From the NCBI RefSeq assembly GCF_009913235.1, contig NZ_CP047897.1, positions 1,631,501 through 1,695,500 of the forward strand: a stretch of DNA of 64,000 nt. The letters run 5' to 3'. This stretch comes from Nibribacter ruber. GTDB lineage: Bacteria > Bacteroidota > Bacteroidia > Cytophagales > Hymenobacteraceae. The notes beneath the pieces were generated by a model. It did not search any database. It was not told where the DNA came from and saw nothing but the letters and a program-made list of their open reading frames with translations. This document shows, in pieces, positions 6,645 through 59,547 of this stretch. The first letter of the stretch is position 1; each line of letters opens with the position of its first letter. A program made the translations under genes and the position numbers.

Positions 6645-6998
6645 TTAACACCCCTCTTCGCTCCCCTCAAGGGGAGAATCTGCGTTTAGTAGAGGCTCCA
6701 GCTAGTGGCACCCAATCCAGTCTTTCCGGCGAGTCGCCTAAGCAGGTTGCCGGCTCAAAGAAGGACACCGGACGCGACGGAGAGATGGCTTAGCAACTCG
6801 CTAGGAAGGTGCTACGCAGAAGAGGCAAGCTGGTACAGCGCGAGGCGGGAAGACGGGGCCCCGCGGCCGTGAGCGCTTAGCGGTTAAGATGAAACAACCC
6901 AGCATAAGGGCACCGGAGCAAGCGGCATTGTTCAGGAACAGCCAACGGAAGCGCACGGCAGAAAGGTAGTCCGGGACGTTGGAGAAAACACCAATAAC
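6645..6998 (-). repeat. Large dispersed element, copy A
   Basis: Read on the minus strand it shares, in the same order, several blocks with 37741-38230: GTTATTGGTGTT (6998-6987), GTGCGCTTCCGTTGGCTGTT (6956-6937), TTGTTTCATCTT (6897-6886), a GC-rich block with CACGGCCGCGGGGCCCCGTC (6871-6852), and an end block containing GCAGAT plus CCCCTTGAGGGG. Spacing between the second, third and fourth blocks is nearly equal in the two copies (38 vs 39 nt and 7 vs 7 nt). No open frame is shared. Possible natures are a decayed mobile element or a structured RNA; unknown. Confidence 0.75.
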
Positions 6999-7057
6999 GG
7001 CTACGAAAAGGGCAAAAGGCAACCGGAGCAAGCGGCATTGCTTAAGAACAGCCAACG
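6911..7057. repeat. Imperfect direct repeat pair, 37 nt, 110 nt apart
   Basis: Units 6911-6947 and 7021-7057 both read (C/A)ACCGGAGCAAGCGGCATTG followed by a variable hexamer and GAACAGCCAACG. The inner unit overlaps a conserved block of the large dispersed element. Confidence 0.85.
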
Positions 7058-14608: not shown

Positions 14609-14646
14609 CGTTTTTGGCCTGTTTCCTAGGAAATAACCCAAAAACG
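14609..14646. repeat. 38-bp palindromic repeat, copy 9
   Basis: CGTTTTTGGCCTG, centre TTTCCTAGGAAA, right arm TAACCCAAAAACG. It begins 4 nt after the GNAT stop. Confidence 0.88.
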
Positions 14647-14747: not shown

Positions 14748-14785
14748 CGTTTTTTGCCAGTTTCCTAGGAAAGTGGCCAAAAATG
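14748..14785. repeat. 38-bp palindromic repeat, copy 10
   Basis: CGTTTTTTGCCAG, centre TTTCCTAGGAAA, right arm GTGGCCAAAAATG. It is 101 nt from the previous copy. Confidence 0.82.
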
Positions 14786-16901: not shown

Positions 16902-18143
16902 TTAAGAGATAGGCTCAATTTCAAATCCTACTGCTGCAAGTGCCTCCCAGAACCGCGGGTAGGACTTCTTCACGACGGACGGTTCTTCTATTTCTATCTG
17001 CTGGCGCAGGGCAAGCGGCGCAAAGGCCATGGCCATGCGGTGATCTTCATAGGTATGGATGCTTGGGTCGTTTTTAGCCTCTTTTCCAGAAAACACCGTA
17101 AAAACGCCCTCTTCAGTTTCTTGCAAAGTGGCTCCAACATTGGGAAGTTCCTGCTGTAAGGCTAATACGCGGTCGGTTTCTTTTATTCTAAGGCTTTCCA
17201 GTCCGGTCATCTCCACTTCTACCTGCAACCCGGCAGCCAGGGCGGCCACTGTCTGGGCCAGGTCTGGACAGGCCGAAAAATCAATTCGTTCTAAGGGTTC
17301 CTGGAGTTCTTGCTTGGTGAGCCGTACGCCCTCTGCCACAAACTGCGTGTGCACGCCAAAAGGCGCCATCAAACGGGGCAGCACGCTATCGCCTTGCAGG
17401 GAATCTGCACGCAAGGCGGGCAACAGGAGGTCTGCCTCTTTTGCCAAAGCCACCGCGCTGTACCAGTAACTGGCCGCCGACCAATCTGACTCTACCGTGT
17501 ACACTTTGGGTTCATACTGATGCGCGGGAACGGTAATGGTATTGCCTTCAAAGCTTGCCTGCACGCCAAAATGCGCCATCTGCGCCAGCGTCATCCTGAT
17601 GTAAGGCTCTGACCCAATCTTACCCTCCAAAGTCAATTTCAAGCCTACAGGCAACAAAGGCGCTATCATGAGCAACGCCGAAATGTACTGGCTGCTGATG
17701 TCAGCTCGAACGGTTAGTTGATTGGAACCCGCGTATTCAAACCCTTTTATTTGCAATGGTGGAAATCCCTCCTGCCCCAGATACTCAATCTGCGCACCTA
17801 ATTTTCTTAAGGCGTCCACCAACACGCCAATGGGCCGCTGGCACATGCGGGCAGTGCCGGTGAGTGTCACCTTCTGGTTCTTGATGGCATAATACGCGGT
17901 GAGAAAACGCATGACGGTACCGGCATCTTCGGCGCTCACCTCAGCCCCGGCGGGGGTAGAAAGCAGGCGGTTCAGCAACTGGGTGTCATTGGCGTCTGAC
18001 AGGTTATGGATGGGAAACTCCTGGCCAGACAGCGCCCTAAGGATGAGGGCACGGTTGGCTTCGCTTTTAGAGGCCGGCAGGGACACGGTGCCGGTCAATA
18101 CCTGAGTGGCATGAGACACGCGTACGGAAGAAGTAGTAATCAT
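16902..18143 (-). CDS. aroA: 3-phosphoshikimate 1-carboxyvinyltransferase (EPSP synthase)
   Basis: 413 residues. Joins shikimate-3-phosphate and phosphoenolpyruvate in chorismate synthesis. Signatures: LPASKSEANRALILRAL at the N-terminus (catalytic Lys and phosphate site), DAGTVMRFLTAYYA, and TYEDHRMAMAFAPLAL near the C-terminus. The start overlaps the aroB stop by 4 nt, so translation is coupled. Residues 347-358 (VFTVFSGKEAKN) are coded by a copy of the 38-bp palindrome just before the TYEDHR motif. The frame stays open and no length increase is obvious against what I recall of relatives. Activity is likely intact. Confidence 0.94.
   Translation of the reverse strand: MITTSSVRVSHATQVLTGTVSLPASKSEANRALILRALSGQEFPIHNLSDANDTQLLNRLLSTPAGAEVSAEDAGTVMRFLTAYYAIKNQKVTLTGTARMCQRPIGVLVDALRKLGAQIEYLGQEGFPPLQIKGFEYAGSNQLTVRADISSQYISALLMIAPLLPVGLKLTLEGKIGSEPYIRMTLAQMAHFGVQASFEGNTITVPAHQYEPKVYTVESDWSAASYWYSAVALAKEADLLLPALRADSLQGDSVLPRLMAPFGVHTQFVAEGVRLTKQELQEPLERIDFSACPDLAQTVAALAAGLQVEVEMTGLESLRIKETDRVLALQQELPNVGATLQETEEGVFTVFSGKEAKNDPSIHTYEDHRMAMAFAPLALRQQIEIEEPSVVKKSYPRFWEALAAVGFEIEPIS
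17069..17106. repeat. 38-bp palindromic repeat inside aroA, copy 11
   Basis: CGTTTTTAGCCTC, centre TTTTCCAGAAAA, right arm CACCGTAAAAACG: about 33 of 38 positions match the family. It lies wholly within the aroA reading frame, coding residues 347-358. Confidence 0.85.
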
Positions 18144-19197: not shown

Positions 19198-19235
19198 CGT
19201 TTTTGGCCTGTTTTCCAGAAATCTGGCCAAAAACG
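19198..19235. repeat. 38-bp palindromic repeat, copy 12 (inside the shikimate operon)
   Basis: CGTTTTTGGCCTG, centre TTTTCCAGAAAT, right arm CTGGCCAAAAACG. It fills most of the 67-nt gap between the DAHP synthase gene and aroB. Confidence 0.9.
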
Positions 19236-37072: not shown

Positions 37073-37115
37073 GCTTCTTTCTTTTAAAGGTTGAGATAAT
37101 ATTCTGTTCATATGC

Positions 37116-37153
37116 CGTTTTTGGGCTGTTTTCTAGAAAACAGCCCAAAAACG
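37116..37153. repeat. 38-bp palindromic repeat, copy 17 (perfect, extended to 52 nt)
   Basis: The core CGTTTTTGGGCTG, centre TTTTCTAGAAAA, right arm CAGCCCAAAAACG is flanked by CATATGC and GCATATG, giving a perfect 52-bp palindrome over 37109-37160 between convergent genes. Confidence 0.95.
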
Positions 37154-37176
37154 GCATATGTCTTTTACTAGCGTCT

Positions 37177-50454: not shown

Positions 50455-51786
50455 ATGCTTCCAAAAGTTATACAATACATCCAGGACCACCAGCTGGCCA
50501 CCGAAGACACCAAGATACTAGTAGCTGTAAGTGGCGGGCTGGACTCTGTGGTGCTGGCAGATTTACTGCACCGCGCCAAATACAAAATCGCTATTCTGCA
50601 CTGCAACTTCGGGCTACGGGGTGAGGAGTCTGACGCCGATGAGCTCTTTGTGCGCAAACTGGCCAAATCCTATGAGGCGCCTTTCTACAGTGAGCAGTTC
50701 CAGACCGAGGCCTTCGCCGAACAGGAAGGCATTTCCATCCAGATGGCCGCCCGCACCCTGCGCTACACCTGGTTTGAGCAGATGCGCCAACAACTGGGCT
50801 ATGACGTCATCGCCACCGCCCATCATCAGTCAGATGCCTTGGAGACTGTGTTGATGAACCTAGTGCGCGGTACTGGCTTAGCCGGCTTGCACGGCATCCT
50901 GCCTAAAAACGGCCACATCATCCGGCCCTTACTAGGTTTCCCCAAAGATGATTTGTACGACTGGCTGGTGGCCAAGCGCCTGGCTTGGCGCGAAGACTCC
51001 AGCAATGAAAGCCTCAAATACTCCCGCAACCTGCTGCGCCATGAGGTGATTCCGGTGCTCAAGCAACTGAATCCCAACCTAGACGAGACTTTTACACAAA
51101 CCCTAGAACGCCTGCAAGGCGCCGAGAAAGTGTTTTTGGCCTCTTTTCTGGAAATCAAGCAAAAAACGCAACGAGAGGAGAACGGCGCCACCTACCTGCG
51201 TATTGCCCCCTTTCAGGAAAGCCCCGCCCCGGCTGTGCTCCTGCATGAATTCCTGAAGCCCTTCCACTTCTCTTATGCCCAGACGCAGGAGATTGTCACT
51301 ACCTTTGACGCGCAGGCTGGCAAGACCTTCACTTCACCCTCGCACACACTGGTAAAAGACCGCGAGGACCTGGTCATCACCGCCAAAAACCTGTCTAGTT
51401 ACGGAAGCATCACCATCCCGGAGGAGACCACTAAAATCAGCTTCGGGCCGTACACCGCCCATTTCACCCGCAAGCCTAAACCCGAGGATTACCGCATCCC
51501 CAAAGGCAAAGACCACACGGCCCTGGACGCGTCCTTGGTCAAATTCCCACTTAAACTGCGCGTCTGGAAACAAGGCGACTGGTTTATCCCGCTGGGCATG
51601 AACGGCAAGAAGAAAGTAAGCGACCTGCTCATTGACAAGAAAGTACCCGCCAACCTGAAGCAAGACGTGTGGGTGCTGGTCTCAGATGCCTCGCTCACTT
51701 GGGTCATCGGTCAACAGTTGGATAATCGCTTTAAGGTCACCGCAGATACAGAAGAGGTGCTTGAGGTTAAGATTACCCGGAGTTGA
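50455..51786 (+). CDS. tilS: tRNA(Ile)-lysidine synthase
   Basis: 443 residues. Puts lysine on C34 of tRNA-Ile, changing its decoding to AUA. The PP-loop ATP site LVAVSGGLDSVVLADLLHRA is at residues 22-41, followed by LHCNFGLRGEESDADE and the conserved RPLLGFPKDDL. C-terminal TilS-specific domains are present (FIPLGMNGKKKVSDLLIDKK). Residues 226-238 (VFLASFLEIKQKT) are coded by a near-consensus 38-bp palindrome, with the frame kept open. Length is standard, so it is likely functional. Confidence 0.93.
   Translation: MLPKVIQYIQDHQLATEDTKILVAVSGGLDSVVLADLLHRAKYKIAILHCNFGLRGEESDADELFVRKLAKSYEAPFYSEQFQTEAFAEQEGISIQMAARTLRYTWFEQMRQQLGYDVIATAHHQSDALETVLMNLVRGTGLAGLHGILPKNGHIIRPLLGFPKDDLYDWLVAKRLAWREDSSNESLKYSRNLLRHEVIPVLKQLNPNLDETFTQTLERLQGAEKVFLASFLEIKQKTQREENGATYLRIAPFQESPAPAVLLHEFLKPFHFSYAQTQEIVTTFDAQAGKTFTSPSHTLVKDREDLVITAKNLSSYGSITIPEETTKISFGPYTAHFTRKPKPEDYRIPKGKDHTALDASLVKFPLKLRVWKQGDWFIPLGMNGKKKVSDLLIDKKVPANLKQDVWVLVSDASLTWVIGQQLDNRFKVTADTEEVLEVKITRS
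51131..51168. repeat. 38-bp palindromic repeat inside tilS, copy 23
   Basis: TGTTTTTGGCCTC, centre TTTTCTGGAAAT, right arm CAAGCAAAAAACG: about 34 of 38 positions match the family. It codes residues 226-238 of TilS. Confidence 0.8.
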
Positions 51787-54571: not shown

Positions 54572-55477
54572 ATGACCACATCTCTTATCATTCTGGCCGC
54601 CGTCATCATCTTAATGGCCATGTCCATCAGAATCATCCAGCAGCAGCGCGTGGCGGTGGTGGAGCGGCTGGGTAAGTTTCAGCGCATAATGCACCCAGGC
54701 TTGAACCTGTTCATCCCTATTGTGGACCGCGTGCGGGTGTACCATGACCTGCGCATACAACAAACCAACGTACCCCCTCAAAGCGTGATTACCCGTGACA
54801 ACGTGCAGGTGCTCATTGACACCATCGTGTTTTACCAGGTGGTAGGCCCAGAGCAGGCCACGTACGGTATTTTTGACTACGTACTGGGCGTGCGCAACAT
54901 CACCACCGCCACCATGCGCCAGATCATTGGCAACCTGGAGCTCGATGAAACCCTTTCTGGCCGCGAGCGAATCTCCTCTGAAATTAGAACAGCCCTGGAC
55001 GAGGCCACCGAGAAATGGGGTGTTCGCATTGAGCGCGTGGAGGTGATTGACATCAAGCCGCCGCTGGACATTCAGGAAGCCATGGACAAGCAGATGAAAG
55101 CCGAGCGGAACCGCCGCGCCATCATCCTGGAAGCCGAGGCCGCTAAACAAGACATGATTCTTCGGGCAGAGGGAGATAAAACGAGTAAAGTGCTTCGGGC
55201 GGAAGGAGACCGGGCTTCTGTAGAACTACAAGCCTTGGGGGAGGCCCGCGCCATTGCAGACGTGGCCGAAGCGGAGAAGAGACGCATTCAGCTCTTGATT
55301 GAAGGCGGCCTGAACGACCAGGTCCTCACCTACAAATCCTTCGAGGCGCTGGAAAAGATAGCCATGGGTCCCGCCAACAAAATCTTCATCCCTACCACGG
55401 CCGTTGAATCTCTTGGCAGCATAGGCGCCATTGGCGAAATGCTGAAAGCAACCTCTGGCAACTCCAACAAAGCATAA
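54572..55477 (+). CDS. SPFH/stomatin-like membrane protein (QmcA-type)
   Basis: 301 residues. One N-terminal membrane segment (SLIILAAVIILMAMSIRII), then an SPFH domain (QQQRVAVVERLGKFQRIMHP; GLNLFIPIVDRVRVYHDLRI) and an Ala/Glu-rich coiled coil (QMKAERNRRAIILEAEAAKQ). Such proteins oligomerise into membrane microdomain scaffolds and can modulate membrane proteases. It forms an operon with nfeD. The stop is followed after 2 nt by a palindrome. Confidence 0.92.
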   Translation: MTTSLIILAAVIILMAMSIRIIQQQRVAVVERLGKFQRIMHPGLNLFIPIVDRVRVYHDLRIQQTNVPPQSVITRDNVQVLIDTIVFYQVVGPEQATYGIFDYVLGVRNITTATMRQIIGNLELDETLSGRERISSEIRTALDEATEKWGVRIERVEVIDIKPPLDIQEAMDKQMKAERNRRAIILEAEAAKQDMILRAEGDKTSKVLRAEGDRASVELQALGEARAIADVAEAEKRRIQLLIEGGLNDQVLTYKSFEALEKIAMGPANKIFIPTTAVESLGSIGAIGEMLKATSGNSNKA

Positions 55478-55479
55478 TC

Positions 55480-55517
55480 CGTTTTTGGGCTGTTTACTGG
55501 AAAACAGCCCAAAAACG
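55480..55517. repeat. 38-bp palindromic repeat, copy 26 (symmetry extended to 50 nt)
   Basis: CGTTTTTGGGCTG, centre TTTACTGGAAAA, right arm CAGCCCAAAAACG. The flanks ATAATC/GATTAT extend the symmetry by 6 bp on each side. It begins 2 nt after the stomatin-like stop. Confidence 0.92.
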
Positions 55518-55527
55518 GATTATATTC

Positions 55528-55838: not shown

Positions 55839-55876
55839 CGTTTTTGGCCTATTTTCTGGAAAACAGGCCAAAAACG
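55839..55876. repeat. 38-bp palindromic repeat, copy 27
   Basis: CGTTTTTGGCCTA, centre TTTTCTGGAAAA, right arm CAGGCCAAAAACG. Confidence 0.92.
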
Positions 55877-57705: not shown

Positions 57706-59547
57706 TTATTTAAGGAACAGGTCTTGCAGATGCTCCATTTGTAGGATCACCAGCGTCTTCTGGCCACTGGGAGTGTAGTTGGGCACCTGGCAGGCAAACA
57801 ACTGGTCCACCAAGGCATTCATTTCCTGGTCAGACAGGCGGCCGGTGAGGCGGGAGGACACGCGTTTGGCCATGGCCCGCGCCAGGTTCTCCTGCCGGTC
57901 TACCTTTAACGAGGAAAGGTTGTTCTTATATTGTTCCAACAGGCCTTCAATCAGCTCCCGCTCGTCACGCAAGGGCACCTCGGCGGGGATTCCGTTCACT
58001 ACAATGGTATTCTGCCCAAACTCACTAAAGACAAAGCCCAGCGCACTGAACTCCTCTGCCAACTCCATGATCAATGAGAAATCTGCCGGCGACAGGTGCA
58101 CCGTCTGCGGGAACAGCAACTGCTGCGAAGCCCCGCTCCGCTTGCCCAGCGCCTGGTTGTACTTCTCAAATAGAATGCGCTCCTGCGCCGCCTGTTGGTC
58201 TACCATGAGCAAGCCAGACTTCACCTGCACCATCAAATACTTCTGATGCAGCTGCAAAGTTTTAGAGCCGCCCGTCACGCTCACGGCCACCGCTGTAGAT
58301 TCCTCTTCTGTAAACAGCCGGTTCTCTTGTTGGTTTTCGGTTCTTGGGATTTCCCTGAGTGCGGCTGGCCTGAAAAAACTCTCGTCCCTTTCTCCCAGCG
58401 TAGCTTTGCTAGCATAGGTAGTAGGCCTGGGCGCTGGCGCCGAAGAAGCACTGGGTGCTTTGGCCGGTGAGGTGTCAAAATCCATGGAAGCCGGAAACTT
58501 CATGGGCTGCAGGGGAATGTAGTTCACATCAGCTCCAAAATCCAGTGACGGCGCGATGTTGTGCAGTCCCAGGCTTTGTTTGACGGCGGCGCGCACAATG
58601 GCATAGACTGTTTTCTCATCCTCAAACTTGATTTCAGTTTTGGTGGGATGCACGTTGATGTCTATCGTTTCTGGCGCTATTTCCAGAAATAAGACGTAAA
58701 ACGGAAAGCTGTCTTTGGGCAACAAGCCTTCAAAAGCCGTCAAAACCGCGTGGTTCAGGTACTGGCTTTTGATGTAGCGGTTATTCACAAAGAAGAACTG
58801 CTCGCCGCGGCTTTTCTTGGCATACTCGGGCTTGCCAATGTAGCCGCGCACGGTCAAAAACGGCGTAGTCTCCTCACAAGAGGCCATCTGCTCTTTGTAC
58901 TCCCGTCCAAAAATGCTCACAATGCGCTGGCTCAGTTTGCCGGCGGGTAGGTTCATCACCTCTACCTCGTTCTGATACAGCGCGAAGGCAATCTCGGGGT
59001 TGGCCAGGGCCACGCGTTGGAATTCGTCCAGGATGTGGCGCATCTCCACCGGGTTGCTCTTCAGGAAGTTGCGGCGGGCGGGTACGTTGAAGAACAGGTT
59101 CTTCACACTGATGATGGTGCCCTCAGGCATGGCCACGGGTTCCTGTTTAATGACCTCGTTAGCCTCCACAGAAAGACAAGTGCCCAGCTCGGTGCCGCGG
59201 GCGCGGGTCTTCATCTCTACCTGGGCCACGGCGGCAATGGACGCCATGGCCTCTCCCCTAAAGCCCATCGTCCTTATTCTGAACAAGTCCTCAGTGGTCT
59301 TGATCTTGGAGGTGGCGTGGCGCTCAAAGCACATGCGGGCATCGGTCTCGGTCATACCCAGTCCGTCGTCCACTACTTGTATCAACTGTTTGCCTGCGTC
59401 CTTGATGATCAACTGCACAGAAGTAGCCTGCGCGTCTACGCTATTCTCCAACAACTCCTTCACCACCGAGGCCGGCCGTTGCACCACCTCACCGGCGGCA
59501 ATCTGGTTGGCTAAATGCTCGGGTAATAAACGAATGATATCTGCCAT
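57706..59547 (-). CDS. mutL: DNA mismatch repair protein MutL
   Basis: 613 residues. N-terminal GHKL ATPase: IAAGEVVQRPASVVKELLEN, DDGLGMTETD, FRGEAMASIAAVAQ. A Pro/Ser-rich linker (about 350-420) leads to the C-terminal dimerisation domain (about 430-613). I do not see the DQHAxxE(x)4E endonuclease motif in clean form (VDQQAAQERILFEKY is close, with Q for H), so nicking activity is uncertain. The conserved VLFLEIAPETIDINVHPTK stretch coincides with a diverged match to the 38-bp palindrome. Confidence 0.93.
   Translation of the reverse strand: MADIIRLLPEHLANQIAAGEVVQRPASVVKELLENSVDAQATSVQLIIKDAGKQLIQVVDDGLGMTETDARMCFERHATSKIKTTEDLFRIRTMGFRGEAMASIAAVAQVEMKTRARGTELGTCLSVEANEVIKQEPVAMPEGTIISVKNLFFNVPARRNFLKSNPVEMRHILDEFQRVALANPEIAFALYQNEVEVMNLPAGKLSQRIVSIFGREYKEQMASCEETTPFLTVRGYIGKPEYAKKSRGEQFFFVNNRYIKSQYLNHAVLTAFEGLLPKDSFPFYVLFLEIAPETIDINVHPTKTEIKFEDEKTVYAIVRAAVKQSLGLHNIAPSLDFGADVNYIPLQPMKFPASMDFDTSPAKAPSASSAPAPRPTTYASKATLGERDESFFRPAALREIPRTENQQENRLFTEEESTAVAVSVTGGSKTLQLHQKYLMVQVKSGLLMVDQQAAQERILFEKYNQALGKRSGASQQLLFPQTVHLSPADFSLIMELAEEFSALGFVFSEFGQNTIVVNGIPAEVPLRDERELIEGLLEQYKNNLSSLKVDRQENLARAMAKRVSSRLTGRLSDQEMNALVDQLFACQVPNYTPSGQKTLVILQMEHLQDLFLK
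58666..58703. repeat. Diverged 38-bp palindrome match inside mutL
   Basis: 38 nt with CG at both ends, centre TTTCCAGAAA and 28 of 38 positions matching the family. It overlaps codons for a conserved MutL motif, so convergence cannot be excluded. Confidence 0.4.

Follow-up and report, generated by a model that had tools for sequence, protein, structure and literature searches.

Dyad sites that are read by chromosome-organising dimers, such as matS and the Noc-binding sites, are 13–14 bp long and occur in tens of copies. Closest in size and placement to the palindromes considered here is the class of REPs, which are palindromes of 20–40 bp present in hundreds to thousands of copies, mostly in intergenic DNA near the 3′ ends of genes, with some found inside genes (PMC3733652). 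In cyanobacteria, HIP1 and the alternate HIPs are highly iterated palindromes whose abundance depends on the species, with a variant replacing the main motif in some of them (PMC4390886). Palindromic DNA is also read in frame within metabolic genes, as seen for the Rickettsia palindromic elements (RPEs; PMC10969869).

The locus described here is a 38-bp dyad within the aroA gene of a Rufibacter genome, found in a 64,000-nucleotide stretch of DNA (hereafter the window). The best explanation, with a probability of roughly two in three, is that the word in aroA is an ancestral copy, embedded in codons, from a genus-wide family of recognition sites in double-stranded DNA, presumably read by a protein, and that it is under dual constraint.

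The dyad within aroA

The aroA gene occupies positions 16902–18143 on the minus strand and encodes an ordinary EPSP synthase, with an intact reading frame of 413 amino acids that passes the NCBIfam aroA cut-off (TIGR01356). The dyad lies within it at 17069–17106, also on the minus strand, where the sense-strand word is CGTTTTTACGGTGTTTTCTGGAAAAGAGGCTAAAAACG and the encoded residues are VFTVFSGKEAKN. An initial annotation gave a match of about 33 of 38 bases at this place; the copy is present, and the count is 32 of 38 against the family consensus used, with 14 of the 19 dyad pairs kept. The copy had also been placed immediately before the conserved TYEDHRMAMAF, from which it is actually separated by five residues (DPSIH).

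Scored with a matrix whose 178 source copies are all intergenic, the aroA copy reaches 50.7 bits, compared with a mean of −97.7 (SD 18.2) for 348,759 coding windows. Scores over 30 bits occur in only six coding windows, all of them copies of the dyad family, and a scan of reversed sequence with the matrix gave nothing above 10 bits. The aroA copy is real, and chance is excluded. The initial view of an in-frame copy of a dispersed palindrome, tolerated as protein sequence, holds; “tolerated” is an understatement, as the codons used at the site fit the motif more closely than the protein requires.

A dispersed dyad family in Rufibacter

The window belongs to a 4.35-Mb single-contig genome (denoted G000). 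Genome-wide counts beyond the 464 kb and 20 samples described below rest on a strict pattern allowing up to 3 mismatches, which finds 1,227 copies in G000, 800 in a relative (G007), and 4–718 in the other 14 members of the genus. Given this range of 4 to 1,227 strict copies among species, the site is not strictly essential in that form. Outside the genus, one match turns up in 33 genomes from other genera of the family, the genomes sampled at order and class level contain none, and the reversed pattern is absent from Rufibacter. Judged from these sequence counts, the 38-bp dyad family is genus-restricted. The viral contigs hold just two stray half-site matches, and a search for an analogous family in other genera (G017, G018, and G019) gave nothing beyond common palindromes of terminator type, unrelated in sequence. 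Titles and abstracts of papers naming Rufibacter and palindromes give no sign of the element.

A position weight matrix applied to 464 kb of G000 detects 196 copies, and 400 kb of G007 yields 161; the scores are bimodal, and the reversed-sequence control is zero. Twenty further 20-kb samples of G000 hold a mean of 7.7 copies (variance 5.3) with no ori–ter trend round the chromosome, and extrapolate to ~1,700 copies in the genome. Within the 464 kb, 184 of the 196 copies (94%) are intergenic and 9 lie inside genes, counts that are approximate because the gene calls were home-made.

The intergenic copies nearest to aroA are at 14748–14785 on one side and, on the aroB side, at 19198–19235, 12 bp past the stop codon of a DAHP synthase/chorismate mutase gene. 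Another, at 14609–14646, lies 4 bp past a stop codon and is a member of the closest pair in the window. A near-consensus copy at 37116–37153 has flanks that lengthen its palindrome to 51 bp, and the top-scoring intergenic copy of the window, at 55839–55876, reaches 65 bits. Two other repeats are present in the window: at 2723–2988, a 48-bp inverted repeat of short GAGTGATT-like units with 170 bp between its arms, unrelated to the dyads; and at 6902–7057, a 46-bp unit in two direct copies that are 87% alike and 110 bp apart.

The copies avoid clustering, with 14 neighbours less than 300 bp apart where 63 ± 6 are expected. Genes beside the close pairs are unrelated, and no candidate regulator is linked to clustered copies. 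Positions are held between species that are ~80% identical: for 154 of 170 mapped G000 copies, a G007 counterpart lies no more than 50 bp away, compared with 21% of random intergenic points. Within orthologous G000/G007 copies, identity is 97–100% at the T tracts and ~50% in the flanks. In two more distant species the motif occurs at the same place in 73% (G006) and 88% (G009) of testable sites, against nulls of 31% and 37%, respectively (threshold 15). The G006 consensus is itself shifted, to GTTTTAGGCCTGTTTTC. G009 is a species with only five strict copies, yet in 200 kb of it a degenerate, weak T-tract skeleton stands at orthologous places; the motif therefore seems to decay or shift without disappearing.

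Origin of the aroA word and selection on its codons

An alignment of AroA from the 15 other Rufibacter and 14 outgroup genomes of the same family has no gap at the word. The initial annotation had left insertion, replacement, and conversion as alternatives; the first fails, because AroA has the same length in all of these relatives. It had further proposed that the same word in every Bacteroidota aroA would mark it as ancestral codon sequence. That holds within the genus but not across Bacteroidota: aroA carries the word, recognisable and always in one frame (for example, GTTTTCAAGGTNTTTTTAGNAAANCAGCCCNAAAACGA), in all 16 Rufibacter species and in none of the 14 outgroups. In a tree of AroA and TilS, G000 and G007 are the first branches within Rufibacter, so the site was already in the genus ancestor. 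These comparisons show that the aroA word is ancestral and arose without length change in a variable segment of AroA.

Codon choice within the word was examined by randomising its 14 codons synonymously with G000 codon usage and scoring the recodings against the motif. The real codons beat all but ≤0.4% of recodings (p ≤ 0.004) in 14 of 16 Rufibacter species, p-values that are phylogenetically non-independent. The exceptions, G005 (p = 0.02) and G009 (p = 0.05), are both low-copy genomes. No outgroup aroA reaches that level (0 of 14; the lowest p is 0.017, at a motif score below zero). Circularity is avoided for 15 of the aroA genes, which entered the test without regard to the word. Over the 13 codons of the word, third-base identity within Rufibacter is 0.64; non-overlapping AroA windows that are just as variable reach 0.46 at most. 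In a plain synonymous-identity scan of AroA, the word comes only 54th among 401 windows; the signal is therefore in which synonym is used and not in extreme conservation. Recoding shows codons evidently chosen to fit the motif, and the comparisons suggest that the DNA word itself, not the protein alone, is selected in aroA.

The pattern has an independent repeat in tilS (50455–51786, plus strand), which encodes tRNA lysidine(34) synthetase. Here the second strong codon-embedded dyad, at 51131–51168 on the plus strand, behaves across the genus as the aroA copy does, the word being present in 16 of 16 Rufibacter and absent in the outgroups, with no length change in TilS. A weak copy in mutL (58666–58703, minus strand; 14.6 bits) may reflect only conserved MutL residues. 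The other coding copies of G000 are found in G007 at the same codon position. Outside the window, two adjoining long genes (G000:C1:1525226–1532376) each carry a strong coding copy and are followed by an 18-kb copy-free stretch, the largest within the 464 kb analysed. The tendency of coding copies to fill long gaps has p = 0.11 and is suggestive only.

Alternative explanations

Of the rival explanations, the one that survives best, though still unlikely, holds that the dyad is a mobile, REP-like palindrome which a RAYT transposase has spread, and that the aroA copy was transposed. In size, abundance, and bias towards convergent and tandem gaps and gene 3′ ends, the dyad matches REPs (PMC3733652), and G000 encodes three divergent RAYT-like (PF01797-like) ORFs, at positions 1739310, 1861595, and 4297876 of G000:C1, for two of which the nearest dyads are 176 and 753 bp away. 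The GTAG and CGTC tags, however, occur in just 6 and 3 of 372 flanks, where random expectation is 2.9% and 2.2%. The stability of positions between species and the unchanged lengths of aroA and tilS also speak against transposition, as do the species-specific copies, none of which shows a clean empty site, though those alignments are poor. A link to RAYT is doubtful, as dyad copy number does not track the presence of PF01797, for which G007, with its 800 strict copies, has no match.

A second rival, rather improbable, is that the dyad is an RNA hairpin or transcription terminator at the ends of genes, with the aroA copy as a by-product. Placement gives this idea its appeal: convergent gaps are enriched for copies, and 26% of the copies in tandem gaps start within 10 bp after a stop codon, compared with 3.4% expected. 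Yet 26 of 186 strong copies lie in divergent gaps, and the sense-strand mismatches in tandem gaps show no overall excess of G.U over A.C (72 against 86 in G000, 76 against 90 in G007, and 54 against 59 in a third set), for which reason the RNA hairpin was rejected. The exception is the near-stop copies of G006, with 44 G.U and 26 A.C. A DNA cruciform is also symmetric in this test and hence compatible with its result. The 3′ arm on the sense strand ends in AAAAACG with no U tract after it, the downstream T content being only ~0.3–0.5; an intrinsic terminator, with a GC-rich stem and U tract, was rejected on account of this wrong tail. A terminator scan did not report the dyad copies between 13500 and 23000, and Rfam had no match in the window.

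The degenerate positions in the two arms vary largely independently, as they would in a dyad read by a protein, and thus favour a reading as double-stranded DNA. Just outside the core, at positions −4 to −2, there is excess complementarity (z reaching 5.9 for G000 and 4.6 for G007), and in G006 some pairs are compensated more often than independence predicts; a hairpin or cruciform therefore carries some weight. At 37109–37159 and 55473–55523 of the window, the flanks are palindromic well beyond the 38-bp core, with a different flank sequence at each place. Such flanks look as if they were shaped by template switching or cruciform formation.

A third rival concerns only the origin of the word and is improbable: gene conversion or template switching would have put another copy over the aroA codons in the genus ancestor, with maintenance thereafter as in the preferred explanation. 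Several neighbouring residues over the word do differ between Rufibacter and the outgroups, and the flanks that are palindromic beyond the core are what template switching would leave. A search for a donor, however, found that the best genome-wide matches stop at the 38-bp dyad, with none reaching into the aroA flanks. The AroA segment is in any case fast-evolving, so substitutions suffice. Given where those matches end and a site older than the radiation of the genus, the conversion offered by the initial annotation is without support.

A chance resemblance of ordinary codons is highly improbable. Part of the left arm is indeed made of ancestral codons, as the Val–Phe pair (GTT TTC/T) is common to aroA of Rufibacter and the outgroups, and this is all that the outgroups share; the aroA score is nevertheless 8 SD above the coding windows, the reversed-sequence control is zero, the recoding test is positive in relatives not chosen for the word, and tilS shows the same pattern. 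An in-frame insertion like the Rickettsia palindromic elements is barely credible, for while the element is palindromic, dispersed, and found in open reading frames, no residues are added in AroA or TilS relative to related species, 94% of copies are intergenic, and the coding copies use all three frames.

A proposed role for the dyads

On the preferred explanation, that of an ancestral recognition site, the 38-bp word would have formed by substitution within the aroA codons, with no change in length, and the aroA copy would be a site that lies within a gene and is constrained as coding sequence and as DNA alike. The dyad would be read as double-stranded DNA by a putative homodimeric or tetrameric DNA-binding protein. 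The matrices contain four A/T tracts spaced ~9–10 bp apart, which would therefore face one side of the helix, and it is these four tracts, about one helical turn apart, that the putative protein would contact. The ~1,700 candidate sites would be spread evenly round the chromosome and would probably help to organise the chromosome or nucleoid, or insulate transcription units from one another. The consensus of the recognition site would drift between species.

More tentatively, Rufibacter may possess an undescribed genome-wide addressing system, in which ~1,700 evenly spread 38-bp dyads with a drifting consensus are addressed by a putative lineage-specific architectural protein and are important enough to be kept in the codons of housekeeping genes, among them aroA and tilS. 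If the dyad is a protein-binding address, a culturable genus would offer ~1,700 natural sites per genome, and related species would form a ladder of strong, shifted, and eroded versions of the site. The codon-embedded copies would then let selection on DNA be separated from selection on protein, and the reason why dispersed palindromes are retained by the thousand in some bacteria would become testable. The aroA copy also warns against assuming that any repeat lying in frame within a gene was inserted there.

Comparison with known systems

Like REPs, the Rufibacter dyads are high-copy palindromes of REP size that are mainly intergenic, near 3′ ends, and in convergent or tandem gaps. They sit in REP-like places and may do a similar job. 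Unlike the GTAG-/CGTC-tagged REPs and REPINs, they have no tag, no RAYT in a relative with 800 copies, and no overall G.U bias; they differ further in holding their positions from species to species, in coding copies that leave gene length unchanged, and in under-clustered neighbours. The dyad is not filed as an REP because it lacks the tag and the overall RNA-pairing bias, and because the transposase link is not established.

With HIP1 the dyads share high iteration, species-variable abundance, and a variant motif in some species; HIP1 is 8 bp long and tied to methyltransferases, whereas the dyad is a degenerate 38 bp and avoids genes. The Rickettsia elements are insertions of ~150 bp that add residues, whereas the Rufibacter dyad adds none and uses native codons. 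In being dispersed, spaced, position-conserved, and double-stranded, the dyads match what is expected of nucleoid- or chromosome-organising sites. Set against matS and the Noc-binding sites as these are generally described, the Rufibacter dyad is longer, at 38 bp, and far more numerous, at ~1,700 copies, with no ori–ter bias in the sample.
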